DNA of 64,000 nt from Halosimplex pelagicum. Lineage in GTDB: Archaea > Halobacteriota > Halobacteria > Halobacteriales > Haloarculaceae. A program made the translations under genes and the position numbers. Positions within the stretch are counted from its first letter, which is position 1. Each line of letters starts with the position of its first letter. Below the pieces are notes generated by a model. That model did not search any database, was not told where the DNA came from, and saw only the letters and a list, made by a program, of their open reading frames with translations. The stretch covers positions 744,001 through 808,000 of the forward strand of contig NZ_CP058909.1 of assembly GCF_013415905.1 (NCBI RefSeq), given 5' to 3'. Shown one piece after another: positions 1,424 to 7,274 of the stretch.

Positions 1424-1494
1424 CCTATCCTCCTGCGCCACAGGGACGCATCTGAGCGAATAAGCCGCTCCGACTCACTTAAGCCTACGTCAGA

Positions 1495-1504
1495 CATATA
1501 TAAA
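1495..1504 (-). promoter_or_regulatory. TATA box of the arvABC operon
   Basis: Read leftward this is TTTATATATG, the best TATA-like sequence upstream of arvA. It would place initiation about 25 bp further left, giving a leader of roughly 50 nt that contains the GGAGG ribosome binding site before the ATG at 1423. Confidence 0.65.
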
Positions 1505-1820
1505 TATTTCGACATGATTGCCGGATTTCGGTCGACTCAGCCCCCGTCACCGCAGGTTACGAGCGGACCCGTGAGAACGGTCAGGGAAGGTGGAGGTCGT
1601 GCGGGGAGGAACAGGCGCCGTCCGCGCGATGGGCTGCGTGCGGTGGGCGAACGCGATGAGTCGTACGGCCGGCCGAACGCGATGGAGTCCGTCGGCTCGG
1701 AGACGGGTCGGTGAGTCGAGTCGGTTCTCCCGAAGCCCGACCGAATGTCCCTCGTTCACTCGACCCACCGACGGGAGTTCACTCATCCCCTGTTCACTCA
1801 CCCCCACCCGCCCAACCCCC

Positions 1821-1842
1821 ACCCCTTCGTTTCGAGTGGAAC
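1821..1842 (-). promoter_or_regulatory. Origin recognition box, left inverted copy
   Basis: On the minus strand it begins GTTCCACTCGAAACGAAGGG and continues into a G-string reaching to about 1801. It differs from the right-hand box at one position in 22. Orc1 is expected to bind it and approach the AT-rich region to its right. Confidence 0.92.
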
Positions 1843-1914
1843 GGCCGAGACCCGTAGGAGTGGTTCGAGCGGGCCCGAAACGTGTCCTCGGATCGGGGTC
1901 AGAAAGAAATGCCG

Positions 1915-2075
1915 CTCAGGCATTTCGACCTAGTCTAGAATTACTTGCGGTGATTTCGAGATAACTAGCGGACATAGATACTCTACAACTAGACACGAAA
2001 CTAGACGAAATATTGTTTTCTCTCTGGTGCGGATTTGGTTTTACGGTCTAGGTGGTAAATCTTTCTCTCTAGCGA
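1915..2075. other. AT-rich duplex unwinding element
   Basis: By far the most AT-rich stretch of the region, lying between the inverted ORBs, with A/T runs around 2005-2020 and 2050-2070. It contains seven CTAG tetranucleotides (starting 1930, 1935, 1965, 1989, 2001, 2048 and 2069), a word normally rare in haloarchaeal DNA. The role as the melting site is inferred from position and composition. Confidence 0.8.
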
Positions 2076-2117
2076 GGTCGTCCGTTCGTCGCTGACCCCC
2101 CACCTGTCCTTATGCTC

Positions 2118-2139
2118 GTTCCACCCGAAACGAAGGGGT
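2118..2139 (+). promoter_or_regulatory. Origin recognition box, right inverted copy
   Basis: Begins GTTCCACCCGAAACGAAGGG and is followed by a G-string to about 2150. It matches the left box at 21 of 22 positions in opposite orientation. Confidence 0.92.
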
Positions 2140-2321
2140 GGGGGAGGGGCGGCCGGAACGGTCGTATCGATGACATTCCTGGGGCCGTCCCGTGTCTCCT
2201 TCGAACGGGTCGCTCGACTGGGTTGCCGTCCGACATCGAGATAGCTCGCAGTACGCCCGTCTACGTCGGCGTATCGACGGGATCCGGTCGCTTTCACGGG
2301 GCCCCGCGCGATAGTCACCGA

Positions 2322-2332
2322 AATATTTAATA
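2322..2332 (+). promoter_or_regulatory. Candidate TATA element for orc1
   Basis: An A/T-only stretch, AATATTTAATA, lies right of ORB2 in orc1 orientation. It is about 165 bp before the assigned orc1 ATG, which would give a long leader containing the third ORB, so a closer promoter cannot be excluded. Confidence 0.4.
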
Positions 2333-2444
2333 TCGTATCAACCACGGGTTCTTGTGGTTCAACTGGACTCGCCGCTCTCGTCGGAATCGACGGAACGCGG
2401 TGATATCATCGGTATGAGTCGCGCTCCGCGGGTGCGCGACGGCA

Positions 2445-2466
2445 CTTCCAGACGAAACAGAGGGGT
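2445..2466 (+). promoter_or_regulatory. Third origin recognition box, next to orc1
   Basis: Matches the right-hand ORB at 17 of 22 positions, keeping the CGAAAC core and the AGGGGT end. It lies 30 bp before the orc1 start. Binding of Orc1 here could couple origin recognition with autoregulation of orc1. Confidence 0.7.
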
Positions 2467-2495
2467 TCGGTTACGCGGTACTCGAACGACTTACG

Positions 2496-4274
2496 ATGAA
2501 CGGGGACGACACAGACCAGGATACGACGCTCGATTCACAGCGGTTCGTGGATGGGGCGGACGGAGACGACGAACAGCTACCCTCGTCGGCAGGTGGTGAG
2601 GGAACGCGACCGGAACCCGACGCCGATGGGGAGTCGGCGGACCGGGAGGAATCGGCCGACGGAACCGAGGAGTCGACCGCCGGTGGCGAGGAGTCGACGG
2701 ACGACGAGTCGCCCGATCCCGAGACGACGGACGCCGTCGACACCGACTCGGCGTCGACCGTCCGGGACGGCGTCGATTCGTCGGGCGTCGACTTCGACTC
2801 CGCGAGCGGCGACGACGACGTCGACTCGTCGGTGCTCGACGACGTGATGCTCGACGATGTCGGGTCCGAGGACCCCGAGGAGGCCTCCCAGGGGCTGTTC
2901 GACGACCTGCTGGCCGGCGATCCGATCTTCGAGAACAAGGAGGTGTTGCGCCCCTCCTACACGCCGCGCAAGCTCCCCCATCGCGAGGAGCAGATCAACA
3001 ACATGGCGACCATCCTCGTGACCGCGCTGCGGGGGGACTCGCCGTCGAACATCCTCATCTACGGGAAGACGGGGACCGGCAAGACCGCCAGCGCGAAGTT
3101 CGTCAGCACGGAACTGGAGTCGACCTCCCAGAAGTACGAGGTCCCCTGCGAGGTCGAGTACATCAACTGCGAGGTCACCGACACGCAGTACCGCGTGCTC
3201 GCCCAGCTGGCCAACAAGTTCATCGAGAAGAACGAGGCGGTCATCGACGAGGAGCTCGACGACCTCGAAGAGTTGCGCGAGCGCGCGCACGAGGACCCGG
3301 CCGCCCTGGCGGAGACCGAGTACGACTCGGTCGCGGCCGTCGAGGACCGCATCGAGCAACTCGAGGACGACCGCGAGTCGTTCGAGCAGGTGCCGATGAC
3401 CGGCTGGCCGACCGACCGGGTGTACAGCACCTTCTTCGACGCCGTCGACTACCACGAGCGCGTGGTCGTCATCATGCTCGACGAGATCGACAAGCTCGTC
3501 GAGAAGTCGGGCGACGACACCCTCTACAACCTCTCGCGGATGAACTCCGAGCTGGAGCGCTCGCGGGTCTCGATCATGGGCATCTCCAACGACCTGAAGT
3601 TCACCGACTTTCTCGATCCCCGCGTCAAGTCCAGCCTCGGCGAGGAGGAGATCGTCTTCCCGCCGTACGACGCCAACCAGCTGCGGGACATCCTCGAACA
3701 CCGCGCCGAGGTCGCCTTCGAGGGCGACGCCCTGACCGACGACGTGATCCCCCTCTGTGCGGCCTTCGCCGCGCAGGAACACGGCGACGCCCGCCGCGCG
3801 CTCGACCTCCTGCGGACCGCCGGGGAACTCGCCGAGCGCGACCAGACCGACGACGTCGACGAGGACCACGTCCGCAAGGCTCAGGAGAAGATCGAACTCG
3901 ACCGCGTCGTCGAGGTCGTCCGCACCCTCCCCACCCAGTCGAAACTGGTCCTGTTCGCCATCATCATGCTGGAGAGCAACGGCGTCCACAACATCAACAC
4001 CGGCGAGGTGTACAACGTCTACCAGCGCCTGTGCGAGGAGATCGACGTCGACACCCTCACCCAGCGACGGGTCACCGACCTCATCTCCGAACTCGACATG
4101 CTCGGGATCGTCAACGCGGTCGTCGTCAGCAAGGGCCGCTACGGGCGCACCAAGGAGATCTCCCTGTCGGTGCCCATCGACGAGACCGAGGCCGTGCTCC
4201 TCTCGGACTCGCGGCTCTCGGACATCGAGGACACCCAGCCGTTCGTCCAGACCCGCTTCGACAACGAGAACTGA
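2496..4274 (+). CDS. orc1: Orc1/Cdc6 origin-binding initiator
   Basis: A 592-residue AAA+ initiator. Walker A GKTGTGKT is near residue 190, Walker B IMLDEID near 327, a sensor-1 region (ISNDL) near 364, and a C-terminal winged-helix domain occupies roughly 490-592. Residues 1 to about 130 form an acidic Asp/Glu/Ser/Thr/Gly tail with no recognisable fold; conserved sequence starts at about LFDDLLAGDPIFENKEVLRP. The gene lies directly beside the ORB cluster, so it is the cognate initiator of this origin. It should bind the ORBs through the winged helix and load MCM. The ATG at 2496 is the only sensible start in this frame, but a start inside the tail cannot be ruled out. Confidence 0.95.
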   Translation: MNGDDTDQDTTLDSQRFVDGADGDDEQLPSSAGGEGTRPEPDADGESADREESADGTEESTAGGEESTDDESPDPETTDAVDTDSASTVRDGVDSSGVDFDSASGDDDVDSSVLDDVMLDDVGSEDPEEASQGLFDDLLAGDPIFENKEVLRPSYTPRKLPHREEQINNMATILVTALRGDSPSNILIYGKTGTGKTASAKFVSTELESTSQKYEVPCEVEYINCEVTDTQYRVLAQLANKFIEKNEAVIDEELDDLEELRERAHEDPAALAETEYDSVAAVEDRIEQLEDDRESFEQVPMTGWPTDRVYSTFFDAVDYHERVVVIMLDEIDKLVEKSGDDTLYNLSRMNSELERSRVSIMGISNDLKFTDFLDPRVKSSLGEEEIVFPPYDANQLRDILEHRAEVAFEGDALTDDVIPLCAAFAAQEHGDARRALDLLRTAGELAERDQTDDVDEDHVRKAQEKIELDRVVEVVRTLPTQSKLVLFAIIMLESNGVHNINTGEVYNVYQRLCEEIDVDTLTQRRVTDLISELDMLGIVNAVVVSKGRYGRTKEISLSVPIDETEAVLLSDSRLSDIEDTQPFVQTRFDNEN

Positions 4275-4315: not shown

Positions 4316-5485
4316 CTACGGAGCGACCGCACTCCGATTCACTGTACTCCGATTCACCGCGCTCCGAGTCGTCGCGTCGCCCGCGAGCGTCGCGCCGGTG
4401 ATCGCCGCGCGGCTGCCGCCGAGACACCGCTCGTTCCGCAGGCGGATACACCCGAGCTTCGGGACGCGGACTTCGGCGGTGCCGACGACCCACTCGGGTT
4501 TGACCGGTGCGCTCAGCGGGTCCGCCTGCGCCTGGTCGTACCCGCCGTTGTTGTCGCCTTTCGTGATGAACCCGGCGTGCGGCGCCGGGCAGTACGGCAG
4601 CGCCTCGTCCGGCGACTCCCCGCATTCGCTGAACCGGCCGAGCGACTGTCGATCGGCCTCCTCGTACCAGTTCTCGCCCTCCTGGACGTAGAACATCGCC
4701 CGGTGGATGATCGGCGTGGCCCCGTCGTTGCCGTCGGGCTTGTAGACGATCACGTCCCCCGGGCGCTGGAACATCGTGTAGCCGGACTCCCGACCCGAGT
4801 CCAGCGTGACGATACCGCTGCCGGCGACCGCGCCCTCACCGGGGAACCGCTGTTCCTCCATCACGAACACCAGGTCGCCGGTCTGCATGTGCGGCGCCAT
4901 GCTCGAACTCTCGATGGCGACCATCGGGGGCCACACCCCGCTGACCGCGAACAGCAGCGCGCCGACCAGCAACACAGCCAGCGCGCTCGACACCACGTCC
5001 ACCACGAAGGTCCGCGCTCCGCTGCGTTCGGCGGTCTCGCCCTCGTCGCCGTCGCGATGTCGGATCGGCGGCGCGTCCGCCGTCGGCTCGCCGCCGTTGA
5101 CGACGACGCCCGCCTCCGTTCCGCCGGCCGCGTTCCCGGTGAGGTCCGCCCCGCTCTCGCCCGTCTCCGGAACCCCGGTCCGATCCTCCGCCCCCCGTTC
5201 CCCGTCGGCCTCGGTGCCCCGACCCTCGTCGACTCCGATGTCTCGCTCTCCGGCGGCCTCGTCGCTCGAAGTTCCGTCGGTCTCGTCGTTCGAAGTCCCG
5301 TCGATTTCGGCGTCCCGACCCTCGTCGACCCCGGCGTCCTCCCGGTCGGACGATACGCCGCCCGGTCGCTCCGGATCCGTGTCCCCTTCGTCGGGAGCGC
5401 CGTCGTCGGCCTCGCCGGAGCCACTACCGCCGACGGGTCCGTCGGGGGACTCGGAGGGCGGCTCGTCGTCGCGGGGCGGACTCAT
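4316..5485 (-). CDS. sec11: Sec11-type signal peptidase I (S26 family)
   Basis: A 389-residue membrane peptidase, converging on orc1. The first 150 or so residues are an acidic, low-complexity cytoplasmic tail. A hydrophobic anchor follows (about 155-180), then the catalytic-serine box ESSSMAPHMQTGD with Ser near residue 195. A conserved His lies in IIHRAMF and Asp residues in GDNNGGYD, as expected for the archaeal/eukaryotic Ser-His-Asp type, not the bacterial Ser-Lys type. It would cleave Sec signal peptides on the outer membrane face. The C-terminus has a short repetitive Arg-Ser-Ala-Val-Asn tail. Adjacency to orc1 and polD small subunit is familiar in haloarchaea. Confidence 0.92.
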   Translation of the reverse strand: MSPPRDDEPPSESPDGPVGGSGSGEADDGAPDEGDTDPERPGGVSSDREDAGVDEGRDAEIDGTSNDETDGTSSDEAAGERDIGVDEGRGTEADGERGAEDRTGVPETGESGADLTGNAAGGTEAGVVVNGGEPTADAPPIRHRDGDEGETAERSGARTFVVDVVSSALAVLLVGALLFAVSGVWPPMVAIESSSMAPHMQTGDLVFVMEEQRFPGEGAVAGSGIVTLDSGRESGYTMFQRPGDVIVYKPDGNDGATPIIHRAMFYVQEGENWYEEADRQSLGRFSECGESPDEALPYCPAPHAGFITKGDNNGGYDQAQADPLSAPVKPEWVVGTAEVRVPKLGCIRLRNERCLGGSRAAITGATLAGDATTRSAVNRSTVNRSAVAP

Positions 5486-5642: not shown

Positions 5643-7274
5643 GTGCCGCTCGAGACGCCGGTCCACGTCGCCAACGAACTCGCCAGACGGGGCTACAACG
5701 CCGAACCCGAGGCGGTCACCCTCCTCGCCTCGACTCCCGACCCCGCCGGCGCGCTCGACCGTACACTCGAAACGGTCCCCGACGACGCCGTCGTGCTCAC
5801 CGCCGACCACGTCAAGGAAGTCGTCGACACCCGGTCGAGGTCCGGCGGTTCGTCGGCTCGAACCGACCCGGAACCGACCGCGGACACCCCGGCGGAATCC
5901 CCCGACGAACCCGCCGGCGAAGACCCCCCTGTTTCGACTGGAACGTCCGCCCCCGAATCGTCGGACGACGGTGCGGGCGCTGCAGTCGAAACGGGGGGGT
6001 CTCGGTCGGGGGGAGGGGGCGGTGGAACGACCGATTCGGCGACCGGTGGCGGACGGACGCCGGCCGACCCCGCGAAGCAGTCGGTCGCCGTCGAGGGCGA
6101 CATCCAGAGCACGGGGACCGGCGAGTACTCCGACTTCGTCGCGGTGTTCCGCGACCGCTACGAGAAGCTCTCGAAGCAGTTGCGCGGGCGGGTCAACCAC
6201 CGGCCGACCGACGCCATCGAGTCGATGCCGGGCAACAGCGAGGCCGCCATGGTCGGGATGGTCTCGGACATCCGCTCGACCGCCAGCGGCCACTGGCTGG
6301 TCGAGCTGGAGGACACCAACGGCACGTTCCCGTGTCTGGTGATGAAAGACCGCGACATCGCCGCCCTCGTGCAGGAACTCCTGCTCGACGAGGTCATCGC
6401 CGTCGACGGCACGCTCGCCGACGACGGCGGCATCCTCTTCGTCGACTCGCTGTACTTCCCCGAGATCCCCCGCACCTACGAACCCTCGACGGCGGACCGG
6501 GAGGTCGAGGCGGCGCTCATCAGCGACGTCCACGTCGGCAGCCAGGAGTTCGAGGCCGACGCTTGGCACCGCTTTACCGACTGGCTCCACACCGCCGACG
6601 CCTCCGCCGTCGAGTACCTGCTCATCGCCGGCGACATGGTCGAGGGCGTCGGCGTCTACCCCGACCAGGACGAAGAACTCGACATCGTCGACATCTACGA
6701 GCAGTACGAGCGCTTCAGCGAGTACCTCAAGGAGGTGCCCGGCGACGTGGAGATAATCATGATCCCGGGTAACCACGACGCGGTCCGCCTCGCGGAACCA
6801 CAGCCGGCCTTCGACGAGGAACTCCGGGACATCATGAGCGCACACGACGCTCGTATCTCCGGCAACCCCTCGACGGTCACCGTCGAGGGCGTCGACGTGC
6901 TGATGTACCACGGCGTCTCGCTGGACGAGGTGATCGCCGAGCTACCCGACGACAAGGCCAGCTACGACGAGCCGCACAAGCCGATGTACCAGCTGCTGAA
7001 GAAGCGCCACGTCGCCCCGCAGTTCGGCGGCCAGACGCGGCTGGCCCCCGAGGAGGAGGACCACCTCGTCATGGAGTCGGTGCCCGACGTGTTCCACTCC
7101 GGCCACGTCCACAAGCTCGGCTACGGCAAGTACCACAACGTCCTCACCATCAACTCGGGCTGCTGGCAGGCCCAGACCGACTTCCAGAAGAGCGTCAACA
7201 TCGACCCCGACGTGGCCTTCGCGCCCATCGTCTCGCTGGACACGCTCGACCTGCGCATCCACGACTTCGAGTAG
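5643..7274 (+). CDS. polB: DNA polymerase D small subunit (DP1), 3'-5' exonuclease
   Basis: A 543-residue small subunit of family D polymerase. The GTG at 5643 is chosen because no ATG occurs before the conserved region, the N-terminus PLETPVHVANELARRGYNAE is typical, and a TATA-like element (about 5614-5620) lies 27 bp upstream. The N-terminal domain is followed by a Pro/Gly/Ser/Asp linker (about 75-150), an OB-fold (about 195-285) and a calcineurin-like phosphoesterase core: SDVHVG near 292, GDMVEG near 329, GNHD near 375, YHGVS near 422, GHVH near 487. All metal-binding motifs look intact, so proofreading activity is expected. Two ORB-like sequences lie inside the linker-coding DNA. Confidence 0.95.
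   Translation: MPLETPVHVANELARRGYNAEPEAVTLLASTPDPAGALDRTLETVPDDAVVLTADHVKEVVDTRSRSGGSSARTDPEPTADTPAESPDEPAGEDPPVSTGTSAPESSDDGAGAAVETGGSRSGGGGGGTTDSATGGGRTPADPAKQSVAVEGDIQSTGTGEYSDFVAVFRDRYEKLSKQLRGRVNHRPTDAIESMPGNSEAAMVGMVSDIRSTASGHWLVELEDTNGTFPCLVMKDRDIAALVQELLLDEVIAVDGTLADDGGILFVDSLYFPEIPRTYEPSTADREVEAALISDVHVGSQEFEADAWHRFTDWLHTADASAVEYLLIAGDMVEGVGVYPDQDEELDIVDIYEQYERFSEYLKEVPGDVEIIMIPGNHDAVRLAEPQPAFDEELRDIMSAHDARISGNPSTVTVEGVDVLMYHGVSLDEVIAELPDDKASYDEPHKPMYQLLKKRHVAPQFGGQTRLAPEEEDHLVMESVPDVFHSGHVHKLGYGKYHNVLTINSGCWQAQTDFQKSVNIDPDVAFAPIVSLDTLDLRIHDFE
5923..5944 (-). promoter_or_regulatory. ORB-like element inside polB, leftward
   Basis: On the minus strand it begins GTTCCAGTCGAAACAGGGGG, matching the oriC right-hand box at 17 of 22 positions. 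It lies in DNA coding for the low-complexity linker, where sequence is free to vary. Confidence 0.5.
5979..6000 (+). promoter_or_regulatory. ORB-like element inside polB, rightward
   Basis: Contains AGTCGAAACGGGGGGGT followed by a long G-rich string (to about 6025). It matches the ORB at 16 of 22 positions. Together with the leftward copy 34 bp away it repeats the inverted geometry of oriC, without an AT-rich spacer. Confidence 0.45.

Follow-up and report, generated by a model that had tools for sequence, protein, structure and literature searches.

The region between the arvA and orc1 genes of the haloarchaeon Halosimplex pelagicum raises the question of whether it is simply one more replication origin of its kind or whether it carries, besides the sites for its own initiator, elements which it shares with other origins. 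Origins are numerous in haloarchaea and each is served by an initiator and an ORB of its own; work by Norais in 2007 is said to have dealt with the oriC1-cdc6A family of these organisms. The genome of H. pelagicum is a single 5.2-Mb contig and the window analysed here, a stretch of 64,000 nucleotides, covers its positions 744001–808000; the arvA protein of the window is 100% identical to that of Halosimplex carlsbadense over residues 2–219. Positions 1442–2495 of the window almost certainly represent the oriC1 of the chromosome, the name given to this origin family by Wu 2012 (PMC3528665), and origin activity in H. pelagicum is predicted from the sequence, the GC skew of forty 20-kb genome samples showing no usable inversion. 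As an origin the locus is ordinary for the oriC1 family, and its interest rests on a core element located between the ORBs, not on the origin as such. The explanation that we consider best overall, with a probability of about 0.7, is an oriC1 that combines a directional core, shared with other origins, with sites for CTAG methylation.

The features of the locus and its neighbours are collected in Table 1. An earlier note on this DNA had described the gene order arvABC-oriC-orc1-sec11-polB and this was borne out by matches to family profiles, that of sec11 being marginally below the cut-off; the gene called polB in that note encodes a PolD-type small subunit (PF04042). The origin adjoins both orc1 and the arvA/oapA operon, and the role of ArvA is taken from PMC10927574. 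Upstream of orc1 there is an AACCAC-N8-GTGGTT inverted repeat, a possible operator of that gene, the inner eight bases of which are unchanged in four of the five same-genus loci checked; it does not occur in locus L344.

Table 1. Features of the H. pelagicum oriC1 locus and two further core matches. Positions refer to the window unless given as genome positions.
Feature	Position	Strand	Score or remark
arvC/oapC (runs past window start)	2–382	−	Pfam OapC PF09845, 47.4 bits
arvB/oapB	389–778	−	Pfam OapB PF09846, E 8.4e-42
arvA/oapA small GTPase, start adjoins origin	782–1441	−	390 of 391 Halobacteria have a match
Left ORB with outward G-string (20-mer 1822–1841)	1808–1843	−	36.5 bits, ORB matrix
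AT-rich region, 61% AT	1922–2071		highest-AT 150 bp of 70% GC window
CTAG cluster (starts 1930, 1935, 1965, 1989, 2001, 2048, 2069)	1930–2072		7 of 14 window CTAGs
Core element, oriC1	2022–2068	+	33.7 bits; 25.5 bits with model R1
Core box A TGCGGATTTGGTT	2028–2040	+	part of core element
Core box B TAAATCTTTC	2056–2065	+	part of core element
C-rich tract inside right ORB	2096–2104	+	sequence
Right ORB with outward G-string (20-mer 2119–2138)	2117–2152	+	36.3 bits, ORB matrix
AACCAC-N8-GTGGTT inverted repeat	2340–2359		sequence
Third ORB TTCCAGACGAAACAGAGGGG, before orc1	2446–2465	+	26.3 bits; 4 mismatches to 20-mer
orc1 initiator, ORC1-type	2496–4274	+	NF001625, 652 bits
Signal peptidase I (sec11)	4316–5485	−	TIGR02228 49.1 bits, just under cut-off 51.85
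PolD small subunit gene	5643–7274	+	PF04042, 51 bits
Inverted ORB pair inside PolD small subunit gene	5924–5943 and 5980–5999	− and +	24.3 and 18.6 bits; starts 56 bp apart
Single ORB just past PolD small subunit stop codon	7283–7302	−	23.0 bits
Second core match	genome 2168346–2168388		R1 21.7 bits; beside other orc gene
Third core match	genome 2533361–2533405		R1 20.9 bits; beside other orc gene

Two inverted ORBs, each ending in an outward-directed G-string, enclose the most AT-rich stretch of the window, in agreement with the earlier note, and over 36 nt they differ at three positions (9, 29 and 30). The AT-rich region is the probable site of unwinding, and a search for an unusual single-strand fold within it yielded none (z −0.21). 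A third ORB, which had also been claimed ahead of orc1, was recovered there as well; a match of equal quality occurred in two of 172 control stretches of the same length, both of which probably reflect the ORBs at 5924 and 7283. Scores were obtained with a matrix built from 308 sites of relatives, which resembles the Halobacteriaceae ORB of Ori-Finder 2 (PMC4164010). After the ORBs listed in Table 1, the next best position of the 64 kb is 10920 with 7.6 bits and all remaining positions score −6.2 bits or lower. The C-rich tract inside the right ORB appears by eye to be one half of the known G-rich repeat for which an enhancer role is described in PMC3936714, and CCCCCACC is present on either strand of the ORB-to-ORB interval in 44 of 68 genera. 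The earlier note did not include the CTAG cluster, the core element or the ORBs at 5924, 5980 and 7283.

That this layout is typical of a conserved haloarchaeal origin, a further claim of that note, holds across the class. A clean pair, defined as inverted ORBs 120–450 bp apart and upstream of arvA, was found in 147 of 190 genomes, and an inverted pair is also present in 73 of 80 loci from named-record contigs, many of which are genomes already in the first set. Together with the window, the 190 loci make 191 entries of which 180 have at least 700 bp on the origin side, 151 of these with a pair; once the length rule had been applied and the duplicate L026 taken out, 147 loci remained, 110 with the CTAG methyltransferase treated below and 37 without. 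The latter belong to 59 genomes lacking the enzyme, 58 of which were fetched (G314 had no arvA match). For five of 21 loci without a pair near arvA in genus g20, which we take for Halorubrum because of what is published on genera lacking the methyltransferase, the reason is that oriC1 and orc1 lie about 10–12 kb from arvA (L436, L438, L442, L451 and L453).

Comparison of the ORB-to-ORB intervals of the 147 genomes revealed conserved words in addition to the ORBs and the C/G-rich tract. Starting from a single seed, the matrix settled on box A, TRCGGnTnYKGTT, seven columns of which exceed 88%, and this is followed, after a fixed gap, by box B, TAAAnnYTYC. Box B lay outside the matrix used for anchoring on box A, and its TAAA occupies an identical offset in 92 of 112 loci, a different one in a single locus, with the exact word missing in 19. 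At a threshold of 8 bits the core was found between the ORBs in 136 of the 147 oriC1 loci and in 64 of 68 genera, and inside the ORB pair in all 73 named-record loci that have a pair; it is missing at 8 bits from the other 11 loci, including all five loci of genus g35 with an ORB pair. The 3' end of the core lies 37–174 bp (median 44) from the ORB at which it points, and 10 of the 136 loci carry it in the opposite orientation with respect to the genes. The runner-up in the window scores −2.9 bits and no match of at least 8 bits was found on either strand in 800 kb of the H. pelagicum genome, where the best chance score was 6.6 bits.

When each family in turn was left out of the model, cores of at least 8 bits were recovered in 37/37 (f1), 7/7 (f2), 23/25 (f3), 57/64 (f4), 3/3 (f6), 2/2 (f7), 4/5 (f8), 2/2 (f9), 1/1 (f10) and 0/1 (f11) loci, against 3 of 1470 shuffles, the box A anchoring in this test having used all families. 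A strict IUPAC pattern of the core, which matched oriC1 and one other place and missed both other core loci of the genome, was dropped in favour of the profile. Judged on sequence conservation, the core is very probably a functional element of the origin. No description of it was found in open-licence full texts and it is apparently unreported; it may be visible in the alignment of Norais 2007.

The core is also shared with origins other than oriC1. A sequence-only model, R1, was built from 64 oriC1 cores and, over the whole H. pelagicum genome, it gave three matches at E ≤ 1, all of which are beside orc genes and sit between inverted arms of three different sequences. Nine orc/cdc6 genes of this genome exceed the family cut-off; the core lies near four of them (L004, L005, L007 and L008) and was not found in the 1.5-kb flanks of the other five (L001, L002, L003, L006 and L009). 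At E ≤ 0.05, R1 matches occurred in 361 of 391 Halobacteria genomes and, at E ≤ 0.01, in 71 of 81 Halobacteria against 2 of 311 other genomes of the phylum, the latter being about the chance level. Sixty further matches were fetched, 40 strong ones (E up to 2.7e-5) hand-picked among the matches listed that do not adjoin arvA, and 20 of lower score (E 8.7e-4 to 6.1e-3) which are the best 20 of 26 Halobacteria matches away from arvA with E 8.7e-4 to 0.01, the H. pelagicum genome not counted. An orc/cdc6 homologue occurs within 3 kb of every one of the 60. Inverted arms scoring at least 16 surround the core in 40 of the 40 strong matches compared with 38 of 800 random placements, and in 18 of the 20 weaker ones, counted without such a control, the remaining two scoring 15 and 10. 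The arms are mostly of other sequence than the oriC1 ORBs, eight being oriC1-type (L323, L329, L335 and five g20 genomes). Since 58 of the 60 cores sit between inverted arms, mostly of other sequence, the core is common to origins with different initiators, yet it is not universal.

Plasmids illustrate both sides. The region upstream of the orc gene of pHH400, which we take as the oriP that is indispensable according to Wu 2014, has inverted arms and seven CTAGs but a degraded core (−2.9 bits); the core match is absent from four of eight haloarchaeal plasmid records and did not turn up in the surroundings of an orc gene on a plasmid of Haloferax larsenii or of one on a plasmid of Halorubrum salinarum. 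A methanogen plasmid shows a weak match (E 0.014). On pNRC200 of Halobacterium salinarum NRC-1 (L434) a core of 28.6 bits at 210230–210276 follows the 3' end of an orc gene at a distance of about 310 bp. On the Halopenitus plasmid pCBA1233 a core at 81446–81493 (L435, about 2447–2494) lies near a gene for a type B DNA polymerase, and the 5 kb shown contain no annotated orc gene; one of the six weaker matches left out above, G017:C2:81446, shares its coordinates. In the H. pelagicum genome there are three other origin-like loci. One of them, at about 3.371 Mb (L001, 2718–3520), is an array of a 24-nt repeat, with seven direct copies and one inverted, upstream of an orc/cdc6 gene; it has no evident G-strings, four CTAGs between its arms and no core that we could find, and is perhaps a different kind of origin.

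Seven of the 14 CTAGs in the window are packed into 143 bp between the ORBs of oriC1. Dinucleotide shuffles of the 275-bp interval contained 1.4 on average and none of 5000 reached seven. Over 63 genera with the methyltransferase the genus-weighted count is 258.6 against 86.4 expected (z 21.8), and of the 4-base palindromes in the interval CTAG alone is strongly over-represented, the next being ATAT (z 4.0); nine genera without the enzyme show no excess (3.2 against 5.9 expected). At least three CTAGs occur in 76 of 110 loci with the methyltransferase and in 0 of 37 without. A PGLS regression on the arvA tree gave t 3.5 for all 147 loci and t 1.8 when confined to family f4, a partly positive outcome in which the link is supported overall and not within f4. 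At E ≤ 1e-40, 332 of 391 genomes contain a homologue of the methyltransferase; H. pelagicum carries the cognate orphan homologue (L021), with a putative CTAG specificity. The genomes lacking it include two Halopenitus and one Haloquadratum, genera also listed without the HVO_0794 family by Ouellette 2018, who saw no growth defect in the absence of the enzyme and was sceptical of a role in H. volcanii.

In H. pelagicum there are also four CTAGs between the repeat arms of each of two other orc-linked loci. A scan of the whole genome for CTAG triplets, with gaps up to 30, yielded five clusters, of which oriC1 and 3371332–3371354, upstream of the L001 orc gene, are orc-linked. The remaining three, without a known orc neighbour, are at 1248572–1248662 (by eye, between transposase-like and glycosyltransferase-like ORFs), 1778588–1778641 and 3188978–3188998. 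An apparent helical phasing of the CTAGs, with a 10.5-bp period over 45 genera, was rejected as a general feature because it is driven by f3 alone, where positions are shared (f3 0.504, f1 −0.124, others 0.064). Nor was CTAG replaced by GATC in genomes lacking the methyltransferase, where no GATC excess was seen.

The CTAG cluster might still be a by-product of base composition, if coding sequences avoid the motif and AT-rich intergenic DNA simply tolerates it. It is indeed rare in H. pelagicum (0.29 per kb in 800 kb of samples) and commoner in the lower-GC stretches of the genome. Nevertheless, the cluster exceeds the dinucleotide shuffles, both here and over the 63 genera, origins of similar composition in genomes without the methyltransferase show no excess, and in family f3 six single CTAGs hold their position over 23 genera, with columns of 0.78–1.0 and a mean of 0.89 against 0.62 for the rest (one inverted locus was left out), so that we regard a compositional origin as very unlikely. 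The core, for its part, could be a promoter: on the reverse strand box B would provide BRE and TATA elements, with box A near the start of a leftward transcript that served as an RNA primer or as regulatory transcription through the origin. Box B reversed approximates to GRARnnTTTAW, at a fixed distance from box A, and its likeness to BRE and TATA follows the general haloarchaeal promoter consensus. Against this, the conservation of seven columns of box A is more than would be expected of a start region, the CTAG zone beyond box A differs, by eye, between families, and the core keeps its distance to the ORB and in some loci is turned round relative to the genes. A promoter is, in our estimate, unlikely.

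A different doubt concerns not the elements but the use of the locus, which could be a complete but dormant origin with replication proceeding mainly from other orc-linked origins. The number of orc genes and the presence of two other loci with core and ORB arms speak for this, as do dormant origins reported in Haloferax mediterranei (PMC4595724). On the other hand, ORBs, G-strings, core and CTAGs are all intact and recur in the same genus, and we consider dormancy rather improbable.

ORBs also extend beyond the origin. Among 49 testable relatives, 11 carry a pair in the PolD small-subunit gene (nine at exactly 56 bp), 28 a single ORB within the stretch scanned and 10 none, so that 39 of 49 have a pair or a single copy. 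At the ORB pairs the rare codons ACT (4% of Thr) and GTT (2% of Val) are kept in 10/10 and 9/10 cases, respectively, and GAA (21% of Glu) in 10/10; this comparison covers 10 of 12 pairs, including that of the window, L194 and L218 with other spacings being left out, and codon rarity was judged from four genes of the window. We argue from the retention of rare codons that selection acts on the DNA, and our guess is that the pair is a titration or regulatory site for Orc1. No description of these ORBs was found in open-licence full texts.

Binding of Orc1 to ORBs, with the AAA+ domain on the G-strings, is established for the family. In an oriC1 with a shared core and CTAG sites, Orc1 from the adjacent gene would bind the inverted ORBs in this way and put MCM over the AT-rich middle, and the directional core would mark the site at which the helicase, or an unwinding step, is set up. 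The reader of the core may be one factor that serves several Orc1/Cdc6 paralogues, for example a UBP-like DNA-binding protein or MCM/TBP-type machinery. We propose a common reader since other origins contain this element between ORBs of a different sequence, and we put the odds of such a non-initiator factor, its identity being conjectural, at about even. The CTAG sites around the core would be substrates of the orphan CTAG methyltransferase and would probably report the replication state of the origin, like GATC in E. coli. To our knowledge no reader protein for CTAG methylation is known; the chances of a regulatory role are evenly balanced, and any effect of methylation on the origin is suggested by analogy. 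Equally poised is the fuller proposal, also drawn by analogy, of an initiator-independent, ucm-like core through which a common factor might orient helicase loading or exit, with the CTAGs coupling this to methylation state. A bipartite element confined to one class, which by itself points to orc-linked origins, offers a handle on a common initiation step, and CTAG methylation at archaeal origins becomes testable at known bases.

The locus resembles the oriC1-cdc6A family (Wu 2012, 2014) in ORB sequence, G-strings, AT-rich centre, gene neighbourhood and inner C/G-rich tract, and it differs in that, by eye, one half only of the G-rich enhancer repeat is present. We found no mention of the core, of where the CTAGs lie or of an ORB pair within the PolD gene in those portions of the Wu 2012 and 2014 papers that we consulted, and Wu 2014 presumes that common cis elements coordinate the origins, naming the G-string. 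CTAG clusters upstream of orc genes, correlated with the orphan methyltransferase, are already known from Blow 2016 (PMC4752239), which agrees with our results in motif and correlation, its figure legend giving CTAG and its text, in places, CATG. The present analysis adds to that work the position of the sites, which lie between the ORBs, a comparison of their number with shuffled sequence, their conservation and a phylogenetic test on a tree. The E. coli GATC/Dam/SeqA system at oriC is similar in having a methylated palindrome packed into the origin, but the motif and the methylated base differ. A further likeness is to the ucm of Sulfolobus (PMC12141716), a short element located between inverted ORBs, with UBP as its binding protein, and common to origins with different initiators. 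In H. pelagicum such an element is found at three loci, and five of the nine orc genes are without one nearby. The two are likened by layout and sharing, not by sequence, and the core suggests that elements of the ucm kind also occur outside the Crenarchaeota.
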